Origin: Bacteroidales bacterium
GTDB lineage: Bacteria > Bacteroidota > Bacteroidia > Bacteroidales > JAIPAH01
DNA length: 33,839 nt
Assembly (NCBI GenBank): GCA_021740175.1
Contig: JAIPAH010000021.1
Span: 1-33,839 of the forward strand
Reading direction: 5' to 3'
The position numbers and the translations under genes were made by a program. This document shows, one piece after another, positions 28,803 to 33,839 of the stretch. Under the pieces are notes generated by a model. The model was not told the DNA's origin and did not search any database. It saw only the letters and a list, made by a program, of their open reading frames with translations. The stretch's first letter is position 1; every line of letters begins with the position of its first letter.

Positions 28803-28920
28803 TTAAGCTTCCTGCAAGTGGGGATATAGCAACTTTCGACTGCTTTTTTCAAAGCATTGCATTAATGATGCAGTTGTTCTCTGAGTTGCTACCATTAAAG
28901 GACTTTGCATCTATCTCGGG
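28803..28920 (-). pseudogene. cas1: C-terminal fragment of a type II cas1
   Basis: The frame ending at TAA (28805-28803) reads MQSPLMVATQRTTASLMQCF then EKSSRKLLYPHLQEA. This matches the family pattern S-P-L-M-x-x-x-Q-x-T-T-A-S-L-x-x-C-F-E-x-x-x-R-K-x-L-Y-P at the very C-terminus of type II Cas1. An in-frame TAG precedes the ATG at 28910; in the neighbouring frame EIDAK would join on with one added base, so a further frameshift is possible. The fragment is cut at the degenerate terminal repeat of the large array (28919). No other part of this cas1, and no cas9, is in the window. Confidence 0.65.
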
Positions 28921-31900
28921 ATCAATTCCAACATGGTGCGATTAAAAGAAGCTCATAACAGAGCGAATGCCTTCAAGGGTTGTAAATTTCAATTCCAGTA
29001 TGGTGCGATTGATAGTCTTGGAAAATCCAAAGTTTTTGATTCTTTATAAACCATTTCAATTCCAGTATGGTGCGATTGATAGAAAAGACATCAAGATCGA
29101 GCAGCTTCAAAAGGAAGATTTCAATTCCAGTATGGTGCGATTGATAGTCGGAATGGAAAAAATAAGGCGCGCGGCATCAGTAAATTTCAATTCCAGTATG
29201 GTGCGATTGATAGATGGCAACCTCGTTTTCCATTTTCTCATTTGTTTGATTTCAATTCCAGTATGGTGCGATTGATAGAAATGTTGCACAAAATTAATAT
29301 TCCAGCCCCCGTCAATTTCAATTCCAGTATGGTGCGATTGATAGATAAACAAAAATATCAAAAACGCTCGCTTAAAACTATTTCAATTCCAGTATGGTGC
29401 GATTGATAGAAAGCCACGCCACCATCTTGCAGAGGCTCTTGTGGTTAATTTCAATTCCAGTATAGTGCGATTGATAGAGCGTCTGAAAGCCCTGCACTTC
29501 TTTCCGAAGTTTATTTCAATTCCAGTATGGTGCGATTGATAGAGCGAGGAATACAACCGCACCACCCGCAAAATCAAGATTTCAATTCCAGTATGGTGCG
29601 ATTGATAGGGGCTTAGATGTCGAATCGCTTCAATTTAATCTTGATTTCAATTCCAGTATGGTGCGATTGATAGGTTCATTCACGCGCTCCCCCTCTTCCC
29701 TGATGGTGTATTTCAATTCCAGTATGGTGCGATTGATAGGTATATAATCATGCTGTCCATAGGTCATACTTTTTTATTTCAATTCCAGTATGGTGCGATT
29801 GATAGTTGGTCTAATTCGTTAAGGTAAATATTAGAAAATAAAATTTCAATTCCAGTATGGTGCGATTGATAGCTCAATAGCTTCTTCCTTTGCATCAAAT
29901 ACTTTTTTCATTTCAATTCCAGTATGGTGCGATTGATAGGCAAGAAAAAGCCGGTTTTTTAGAAGGTGTGGAATCATTTCAATTCCAGTATGGTGCGATT
30001 GATAGAAGATCACCGAGCAACAGAAAATCAACGTATCGACATTTCAATTCCAGTATGGTGCGATTGATAGATCACGTTTGAAGATAATGGACAGGACTTT
30101 TTAAAAATTTCAATTCCAGTATGGTGCGATTGATAGTACGCAGGATTTCCAGTTTGCCCAGGTTACCGGTTATTTCAATTCCAGTATGGTGCGATTGATA
30201 GATTTCTCAGATTGGGTTTTGGCTGCTAATAGCGAATTTCAATTCCAGTATGGTGCGATTGATAGTATTTAAAGCGTTTGATATTTCTTTTAATGATTTC
30301 ATTTCAATTCCAGTATGGTGCGATTGATAGAATTCAATTAATGACTGGGTTAAAACGGCTTCCGTATTTCAATTCCAGTATGGTGCGATTGATAGTTTTG
30401 TACTCTTTCATAACCATTTTTCCTTTCTCCATTTCAATTCCAGTATGGTGCGATTGATAGTGCTGGAGGGCATATCCCTGGTAATCGCCTTTTTGTATTT
30501 CAATTCCAGTATGGTGCGATTGATAGGTCACTATTGCGCAGATTAAACAGCTTCTTAATGAATTTCAATTCCAGTATGGTGCGATTGATAGTTTTATCCC
30601 CGCGCAATATTAAGATATGTTCAACATTATTTCAATTCCAGTATGGTGCGATTGATAGTTTTTTCTTTTCTCTCATAATCAGATATTTGCCAAGTTATTT
30701 CAATTCCAGTATGGTGCGATTGATAGTTTAAAATCCCGGCACAGCGTATTTGTGTCGGGTTTTTATTTCAATTCCAGTATGGTGCGATTGATAGGGGAGG
30801 ATAACCAGTTTGATTCTACTCATAGTAATATTTCAATTCCAGTATGGTGCGATTGATAGATGGTATGTAACCACAACCGACACATTTATGAGCGGATTTC
30901 AATTCCAGTATGGTGCGATTGATAGGCAATAAGTTGAGCCATACGTTCCCGTTCTTTGTTAAATTTCAATTCCAGTATGGTGCGATTGATAGGGATTGCC
31001 TGAAAAACGTGTTAGGCAGGGATTGCTTATTTCAATTCCAGTATGGTGCGATTGATAGAAAAGTTCTTTGAAAGATAAAACAAGAAGTACAGGTATTTCA
31101 ATTCCAGTATGGTGCGATTGATAGCCAACTACTACACCAAAACGGAGCTCGACGCAAGCGAATTTCAATTCCAGTATGGTGCGATTGATAGAGGGTATGA
31201 GGCACAGATTCGTACAAGAAGTGGTTATTTCAATTCCAGTATGGTGCGATTGATAGTAAATTACTTGAAAGGGCTTATGCGTTGGCTCAGAGATTTCAAT
31301 TCCAGTATGGTGCGATTGATAGTTTGACACTCTGTGTGATGACTGAGAAAAGATCATATTTCAATTCCAGTATGGTGCGATTGATAGGCGCCAGGTAGGT
31401 GGCGATATATTTGTGGTAGGACAATTTCAATTCCAGTATGGTGCGATTGATAGGACGTGTAGAACTTGGCAAACAAATTCTCCCCGAAATTTCAATTCCA
31501 GTATGGTGCGATTGATAGATGATAAAAAAATATTGGTGGGTTGGATTGCTGCTTTATTTCAATTCCAGTATGGTGCGATTGATAGATGTTAGGTTTATAT
31601 TAGAAAAATTTAAGGTTTTACAATTTCAATTCCAGTATGGTGCGATTGATAGCTATTCACCCAGAGACGCCGCAAACGCCCGGATGACAATTTCAATTCC
31701 AGTATGGTGCGATTGATAGATTATTAACCTGGACTATCCGGTTAATGCTGAAACGCATTTCAATTCCAGTATGGTGCGATTGATAGTACGCGATATGAAC
31801 GTGATGATAAAAGTGGAGCGCAATTTCAATTCCAGTATGGTGCGATTGATAGGGTAAGGACCAGGCCGAAGATGAAATCCGGGAATATATTTCAATTCCA

Positions 31901-32187
31901 GTATGGTGCGATTGATAGATCGGCCACGGGCCTGATCCAGTTCCTGCAATCCAATTTCAATTCCAGTATGGTGCGATTGATAGAATTTAGAAAGAGAATC
32001 TCAAGACCAAGCTCTTGCATAATTTCAATTCCAGTATGGTGCGATTGATAGTGTTTTTATACTCTTTCATAACCATTTTTCCTTTTTCCATTTCAATTCC
32101 AGTATGGTGCGATTGATAGTGTCATTCTGATTAAAATCTTCTGCCGGTGGTCTTTCGATTTCAATTCCAGTATGGTGCGATTGATAG
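28919..32187 (-). CRISPR. CRISPR array, 49 repeats of 30 nt plus one degenerate repeat (type I-B/III-like)
   Basis: Forty-nine copies of a 30-nt repeat start at 28986 and end at 32187, at a 64-68 base period; the 48 spacers are 34-38 nt. Read on the minus strand the repeat begins CTATCAATCGCACC and ends GGAATTGAAAT, so processed crRNAs would carry the 8-nt tag ATTGAAAT known from Cas6-cut type I-B and III systems. All repeats look identical except one G-to-A change in the copy at 29448-29477. A fiftieth copy at 28919-28948 differs at seven positions and marks the old, trailer end. The leader is therefore on the right, next to cas2. Order of age: newest spacers near 32187, oldest near 28949. 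Confidence 0.97.
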
Positions 32188-32407
32188 CCGTTAAACCGGG
32201 CCTTAAAAAAGCCCTTTTAACAGGCTTTTCAAAAGGACTAATATACGAATTTTTTCCGGTTTACGTCGTCAACCGTCAATAACCGTATTTTGATCCGTCG
32301 ATCGACGACTTTTATAAATATTTTATTTCCAGGATGTCAAAGAACGTACCTGTAAAATTAATCGATTTGAATGAGGATAACAAACCTTGTTTAGGGCTGA
32401 CCGACGA
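32188..32407 (-). promoter_or_regulatory. CRISPR leader
   Basis: The 220 bases between the first repeat and the cas2 stop are AT-rich and non-coding. Notable parts are a hairpin AAAAGCC/GGCTTTT (32207-32213, 32223-32229) only 19 bases from the first repeat, the 12-base perfect palindrome CGTCGATCGACG (32296-32307), and a GTCGTC/GACGAC dyad (32265-32270, 32304-32309). GACCGACGAC at 32399-32408 repeats GATCGACGAC at 32300-32309. These may be sites for leader-guided integration or transcription start. Confidence 0.6.
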
Positions 32408-32671
32408 CTATAAAAAGGTATCCAAACCGGCCTTCTCCTGCCCGATAATCTCCTTTTTGAGCCATTTCTCCTCGCGCGATTTAAAAATGATCATGCTATC
32501 TTCTTCCTTATCCATGATTTTACCGGCGGCACTTTTCAGTTCTTTTAACTTAACCTGTGTGATTTCGCCTTCAAATACCGAGTTCTGAATCCAGTTTACA
32601 TATCGGCGGCACAGTTTGAGCATCTTGCCCACGCGTTTCTCATTCACATCATAAACCAAAATAATATACAT
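32408..32671 (-). CDS. cas2: CRISPR-associated Cas2 (type I-B-like)
   Basis: An 87-residue, intact Cas2 that pairs with Cas1 to insert new spacers. It opens with MYIILVYDVNEKRVGKMLKL (first strand and the acidic D8) and continues with CRRYVNWIQNSVFEGEITQV and DKEEDSMIIFKSREEKW. This is the pattern of Cas2 from Bacteroidota type I-B loci. It is followed by the leader and array. The gap to cas1 (141 bases) is wider than usual for this gene pair and holds a short tandem repeat. The start ATG at 32671 gives the standard N-terminus. Confidence 0.95.
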   Translation of the reverse strand: MYIILVYDVNEKRVGKMLKLCRRYVNWIQNSVFEGEITQVKLKELKSAAGKIMDKEEDSMIIFKSREEKWLKKEIIGQEKAGLDTFL

Positions 32672-32812: not shown

Positions 32813-33787
32813 CTACCACCAAATCTTAAACGGCTTGTAGGTATCCATTTTCAAAATATGCTTCACCAGCTTGTAGCATTCCAGCCGTATTAAATGCTTA
32901 TAGCTTACCTTTCTTTTGAGGTGCCGGTGATGAATGGTTTCGTTAAGCCGTTCCTCAAAGGCTGCAATGAATTTCTTTTTCCCGGCTTCTTTCAGCACAA
33001 TCCGGTTGACCTTCTTGTCAAAATCCTTTACCTGGATTTCCTTTTTATTCAAAACCTTAAAAATGACGCGATCCACCAGTAAAGGCTTGAATATCTCTGC
33101 CAAATCGAGTGCCAGCGAATAACGCCGCTCGCCGGGCGTATGCAGGTAGCTGATGGTTGGGTTGAGCTGTGTTTGATGAATAGCCCTGAGGCATTGGCTG
33201 TAGCACATCATGTTACCGAAAGAAATCAGCGAGTTGAGTTCGTTTTTCGGGGGTTGCTTGCTGCGACCTTCCATCCTGAAATCTTCGGCCACAATATGGT
33301 CAAACGCTTCGTAGTAAATATTCCGGATATTCCCCTCGAGTCCCATCAACTCATCAATGGCTGTGGTTGCTTCGAGGTTGTTCCGGTAATCTTCAATCAC
33401 ATCAATATAGGATTGCAGCTCTTTGCCGCGACTGTTATAGTATTTCAGGTTTCGAAGGATGTTATAGCTGGCCCCGTCGATAAATTGTTTAGCTATAACG
33501 CTCCGTTTTTTCTGCGATTTATGAAACTCCGCCTGGGCCAGGATGACCTTCCCGGCCAGTAATTGGTCTTTGGGCATAAACGACCCGGAGTAGTTCTCGT
33601 AGTAATCGAAAAAGTGTACGGCAATGTCATTCTTTCCCAGAAAGTTGTACAAGGCCGAATTCGCATCCAGCGATCCAAATATGTACAAATCTTCCACCCC
33701 TGGATATACCGGAGCAAGCTGACCCCCCAATTCTGCCGATAAAAAGGAAGATTTTTTTCTGTCATTCCGGCGGATGTTGACCCCCAA
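32813..33787 (-). CDS. cas1: Cas1 (type I-B-like), N-terminus replaced by IS-derived codons
   Basis: The integrase of CRISPR adaptation. The open frame is 324 codons from a TTG at 33787, but only residues ~31-324 look like Cas1. [20 protein letters not shown] (~31-50) is the usual segment that follows ~40 N-terminal residues in this family; those are missing. The first 30 residues ([20 protein letters not shown]...) come from the adjacent insertion-sequence end. The active site is intact: E151 in [15 protein letters not shown]216 in [19 protein letters not shown] with D228 and E231. Loss of the N-terminal strands should harm the Cas1 dimer. Translation could start at a GTG (33697) with no known ribosome site. 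cas2 follows after 141 bases. Confidence 0.85.
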
Positions 33788-33839
33788 ATCCTGATAATAG
33801 GGAAAATTTCCGGAGCATATTGACCCCGGATTATAGCAT
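33701..33839. mobile_element. End of a probable IS21-family element
   Basis: Three direct copies of a CCGGAG-N5-TGACCCC word occur: 33709-33728, 33767-33785 and 33810-33827. The terminus is set near 33701 (TGGATATACCGG) because Cas1-like coding stops there. Multiple terminal repeats of this kind are typical of IS21-family ends in Bacteroidota, where they bind the transposase. The transposase genes would lie beyond the right edge. Family assignment is from the repeat pattern only. Confidence 0.6.

Follow-up and report, generated by a model that had tools for sequence, protein, structure and literature searches.

Spacers S2 and S27 of the CRISPR array in the window (the whole stretch of DNA that was analysed, 33,839 nt) were very probably acquired independently, from two copies of a single target that had diverged. 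Two captures are favoured because the two spacers share a fixed tag-side edge while their far edges lie 3 nt apart, because their neighbours are unrelated, and because they carry two substitutions in 35 bases, compared with about one in 1470 bases of the repeats. The original prediction, that one diverging target had been sampled repeatedly, stands as the best-supported reading on these grounds and on the assignment of the system to type I-B. It had also named a phage as the source and given the drift a direction, and on these two points it went further than the data, since no protospacer was found.

The spacer pair in its array

The array (28919..32187, minus strand) was parsed directly and comprised 49 spacers, each 34-38 nt long, interspersed with 50 repeats of 30 nt that read CTATCAATCGCACCATACTGGAATTGAAAT on the crRNA strand. 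Forty-eight of the 50 repeats were identical, one carried a single substitution and one, the trailer repeat at the low-coordinate end of the array (28919-28948), was degenerate. On the minus strand the 3' end of the repeat was ATTGAAAT, a tag of the usual 8-nt type. Three features concur in assigning the crRNAs to the minus strand and in placing the leader above 32187: the degenerate repeat at the low end, the AT-rich region beside cas2 and the repeat end ATTGAAAT. The AT-rich leader region between the array and cas2 (32188..32407, minus strand), which was assigned from its position and a shared motif only, contained ACGTTCTTTGACATCCTGGA. This motif was also present in the leader region of a second array on contig C213 (L009 14345-14370), the repeats of the two arrays being different, and it is a possible common promoter or adaptation signal.

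Direct parsing of the array reproduced exactly the coordinates, lengths and ranks that had been predicted for the pair. S27, the older spacer (30396..30430, minus strand, 35 nt, crRNA strand GGAGAAAGGAAAAATGGTTATGAAAGAGTACAAAA), is the 27th from the leader, and S2, the recent spacer (32052..32089, minus strand, 38 nt, crRNA strand GGAAAAAGGAAAAATGGTTATGAAAGAGTATAAAAACA), is the 2nd; about 24 insertions separate them. Their near-identity and common tag-side edge were likewise confirmed, with 33 of 35 bases in agreement when the two were aligned at the base that directly follows the 5' tag. At spacer position 4, S27 carried G where S2 had A, and at spacer position 31 it carried C where S2 had T; at the far end S2 extended 3 bases (ACA) beyond S27. 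Both 35 nt and 38 nt are ordinary spacer lengths for this array. When the 49 spacers were compared all against all on both strands, the S2/S27 pair scored 30 and the second-best pair scored 12, and no second similar pair was present. As the maxima of 40 shuffled arrays ranged from 10 to 15, the match between S2 and S27 is far beyond chance.

Near-identical spacers in the I-E/I-G arrays of Bifidobacterium animalis subsp. lactis have been ascribed mainly to duplication (PMC12915315), as have most near-identical spacers of one array (PMC11472070), and duplication, the usual account of repeated spacers, also explains most complex events in reconstructed arrays (PMC12915315, PMC11472070). Accordingly, S2 could be a duplicate of S27, or the reverse, produced by recombination or slippage between repeats and later altered by two point mutations and by a length change of 3 nt. 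We regard this origin as highly improbable. Duplication predicts equal lengths, whereas S2 and S27 differ by 3 nt and at one edge only, and it usually copies neighbours, whereas the spacers flanking S2 and S27 were unrelated and no duplicated neighbour of either was found. The copy also sits near the leader. Moreover, the difference at 2/35 bases stands against about 1 change in 1470 bases of the repeats (Fisher p=0.0016, on the premise that spacers and repeats mutate alike, although the repeats may be homogenised). Copying within the array, the outcome that had been set in advance as contradicting repeated sampling, is thus not indicated by the unequal lengths, the two substitutions and the unrelated neighbours.

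A fixed tag-side edge combined with a variable far edge is the pattern that PAM-anchored capture is expected to give. Three features of a re-acquired spacer, namely the same tag-side (PAM-side) edge, sequence divergence and an independent far edge, were present, in a case that rests on a single spacer pair. Chance resampling of the same site is not extraordinary: with 49 spacers taken from one 50-kb genome and a 2-3-nt PAM, 0.2 to 0.75 same-site pairs would be expected, and fewer if the spacers derive from many elements.

The analysis directly shows the two spacer sequences, their register, their unequal length, the polarity of the array and which cas genes are present. In the explanation that we infer, of which a common target, PAM anchoring, seed escape and priming are parts, S27 and S2 would have been taken up from two versions of one invader sequence, the system responsible being of type I-B (Cas8b1/Cst1, TNEAP-type). 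Each time, Cas4-Cas1-Cas2 would have cleaved at one and the same tag-side PAM, and the far end would have been trimmed to a different length. Between the captures the target would have been altered by at least two transitions. With the position-4 change in the seed, the crRNA of S27 would probably have ceased to permit cleavage, and S2 would have restored a perfect match. Priming of the S2 capture by the S27 crRNA would be a further step.

The cas genes and the insertion in cas1

Two adaptation genes lie beside the array on the minus strand. The cas2 gene (32408..32671, 87 aa) matched PF09827 (E=5.5e-23) and TIGR01573, and a cas1b gene that lacks its first ~38 codons (32813..33700) matched TIGR03641 (E=1.5e-128) from position 33 of the profile. 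The cas1 gene is interrupted by the end of a repeated insertion-sequence-like element (33701..33839) with TGGATATACCGG...TGACCCCC repeats, at which the contig ends. Contigs C115 and C129 carry identical copies of these 139 bp (33701-33839). The first part of cas1, MKKTYYLFNPGRLSRRDQTLKFTPVDEEGNEQKPRFLP, which is missing here, was located at the end of contig C60 (L018:142-255, minus strand), beside the other end of the element. This 42-residue piece gave a profile E=0.025, which is weak alone, and its place, its orientation and its complementarity to the missing part make the identification convincing. The adaptation gene cas1 is therefore broken in the assembled sequence. Since cas1 is split by the element, the array may be frozen and no longer growing.

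The element itself (window 33701-33839 and C60, L018 1-141) ends in TGGATATACCGG and TGCATATTCCGG, followed by several TGACCCCC units, and is IS21-like in style. No transposase for it was found in the assembly, where a search for IstB returned no convincing match.

The position of the missing cas1 start, at the end of C60 and next to the other end of the element, ties C60 to the array in the window. C60 carries cas6, a second cas6, cas8b1/Cst1, cas7/Cst2, cas5b and cas3, in addition to cas4. The effector genes of type I-B1 (Cst/TNEAP), cas8b1/Cst1, cas7/Cst2, cas5b and cas3, were thus all present on this contig, with matches to TIGR01908 (E=4.9e-62), TIGR02585 (E=1.5e-66), TIGR01895 (E=5.8e-46) and TIGR01587 (E=3e-70) in L018. 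The cas4-cas1b-cas2 adaptation module was also complete in gene content, with cas4 on C60, cas1b and cas2 in the window, and cas1 interrupted. The array is part of a type I-B system, and the effector genes of this system, on C60, are intact. No PF22335 match was found in the assembly (79.65% complete), so the Cas10 of a type III system was not detected there, and the tag side was accordingly read as the PAM side, as in type I.

Within the cas operon on C60, an AbiEi/AbiEii abortive-infection pair lies between cas3 and cas4 (L018 2241-3867) and an AAA-ATPase gene lies between cas4 and cas1 (L018 317-1432, minus strand). Just after the AAA-ATPase gene, two tandem copies of the initial ~28 bases of cas1 (ATGAAAAAAACCTACTACTTATTCAATC) are present (L018 216-330). 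A second, separate type I-B-like CRISPR-Cas locus on C213 (L009 4673-14942) has a Cas_TM1802-type Cas8b, its own cas1, cas2 and cas4, a WYL regulator, a 37-nt repeat and at least 6 complete spacers. Six of its spacers and a partial spacer at the contig end matched none of the spacers in the window.

The target of S2 and S27

Frame 2 of the crRNA strand of the spacer reads EKGKMVMKEYKN, and both differences between S2 and S27 are silent in this frame. The antisense frame LYSFITIFPFS is likewise left unchanged by both, and in a simulation 41% of random transition pairs were silent in some open frame, so that a coding target is plausible from the reading frame but unproven.

The silent differences bear on a second origin of the pair, in which S2 and S27 derive from two separate elements with a conserved stretch in common, such as members of a gene family. 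This would be a version of the two-capture reading and compatible with it, with two captures but no escape or drift, and we consider it possible though short of probable. Silence of both changes in frame EKGKMVMKEYKN is what would be expected for homologues under protein-level constraint, but its weight is small given the 41% of random pairs that behave in the same way.

It had also been proposed that both spacers read through a ribosome site and a start codon, and a target of this kind might be sampled preferentially. A purine-rich stretch does precede the ATG in GGAGAAAGGAAAAATGG. However, frame EKGKMVMKEYKN is open upstream of the ATG and through the supposed site, the GGAG of S27 is GGAA in S2, and no protospacer was found. 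A T9SS sorting-domain protein (TIGR04183) of the host points to Bacteroidota, in which Shine-Dalgarno sites are rare or naturally missing (PMC6847099, PMC9976891). The ribosome-site reading is very unlikely and was not retained; the account of two captures from one target does not depend on it.

The protospacer of S2/S27 was not found in IMG/VR, searched with one exact joint pattern and with four degenerate ones, or in GTDB genome contigs, searched with two patterns; both scans were exact pattern matches, which a target with several further changes would escape. It was also not found in phages or plasmids by blastn, or with up to 3 mismatches in the genome itself (as a 79.65% complete assembly) or in relatives. 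None of the array spacers had a protospacer in 393 genomes of the order, and about 850 related genomes were covered in total.

Four candidate targets were rejected as chance matches. The match in L003 was in a different frame and had no ribosome site, and L019/L020 is a host gene, which we take to be S1/P1-nuclease-like, that shares GKMVMKEY only. L031 is a 511-aa host gene resembling NAD(P)HX epimerase/dehydratase (32/38), and Agrobacterium phage Atu_ph07 matched at 84% with E=0.01.

Two other spacers of the array showed features of their own. On its opposite strand S15 (31192-31226) encodes GYEAQIRTRSG, a conserved dUTPase motif, and several relatives have dUTPase-like genes that resemble it (up to 31/35); its target is therefore probably a phage dUTPase. 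As a route to the PAM, S15, S12 and S7 were searched as degenerate codons in IMG/VR, with no match. S22 (30727-30764) is a terminator-like hairpin, AAAACCCGACACA...TGTGCCGGGATTTT (-11.1 kcal/mol, z -3.4), and its crRNA could therefore fold on itself.

Seed mismatch, priming and known parallels

In the I-B system of Haloferax, defence requires pairing at spacer bases 1-10, with position 6 as the exception (PMC4390866). Position 4 of the pair would therefore lie in the seed and position 31 outside it, and by these haloarchaeal I-B rules, carried over to the present system, S27 would probably be ineffective against the target from which S2 was taken. Adaptation in the I-B system of Haloarcula requires a partly matching old spacer (PMC3936756). 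S27 matches the S2 sequence partly (33/35), and a dependence of the S2 capture on S27 is putative.

Capture of S2 by S27 priming against a seed-escape mutant would be a true update of the memory. It is again a version of the two-capture reading and compatible with it, and we hold it to be somewhat unlikely. The position-4 mismatch falls within the I-B seed, and it is established that old spacers with a partial match can prime adaptation in I-B; but primed spacers come from many sites of the invader, so that re-capture of the same site is not specifically predicted, and neutral resampling is plausible at the chance expectation given above. The full sequence of events, in which a phage escaped S27 through the silent position-4 seed mutation and primed I-B adaptation re-took that very protospacer to give S2, appears unlikely. 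If true, it would be site-faithful updating and not capture from neighbouring sites.

The behaviour of the S2/S27 pair is already known, and the pair is a clean natural example of it, not a new mechanism. Pairs of this kind would be natural records, within one array, of phage escape and immune re-matching, and the difference in far-edge length is a simple sign by which re-acquisition can be parted from duplication. The value of S2/S27 lies in the combination of this length difference with a seed-position change, which makes the update hypothesis testable; if the seed change is an escape mutation, the pair would give a direct test of same-site memory update in I-B.

As in the arrays of B. animalis subsp. 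lactis, where spacers that are identical or a few bases apart occur adjacent or dispersed in one array (PMC12915315), the near-identical spacers described here share a single array. The authors of that study used seed positions 1-8 to part functionally distinct spacers (PMC12915315). Unlike those arrays, the present one is of type I-B, and the unequal spacer lengths and the invariant repeats speak for captures made independently. In priming assays with the type I-C system of Legionella the same protospacer was acquired independently (PMC5071653), and here too one target site would have been taken twice. The Legionella result came from one identical plasmid in a laboratory assay, whereas two diverged versions are found here in one natural array. 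The closest system by subtype is the I-B system of Haloarcula hispanica, in which an older spacer with a partial match drives the uptake of new ones (PMC3936756), a role that S27 may have played for S2. In Haloarcula hispanica, however, the new spacers originated on both the upstream and the downstream side of the old site, whereas S2 would have re-taken the same site.
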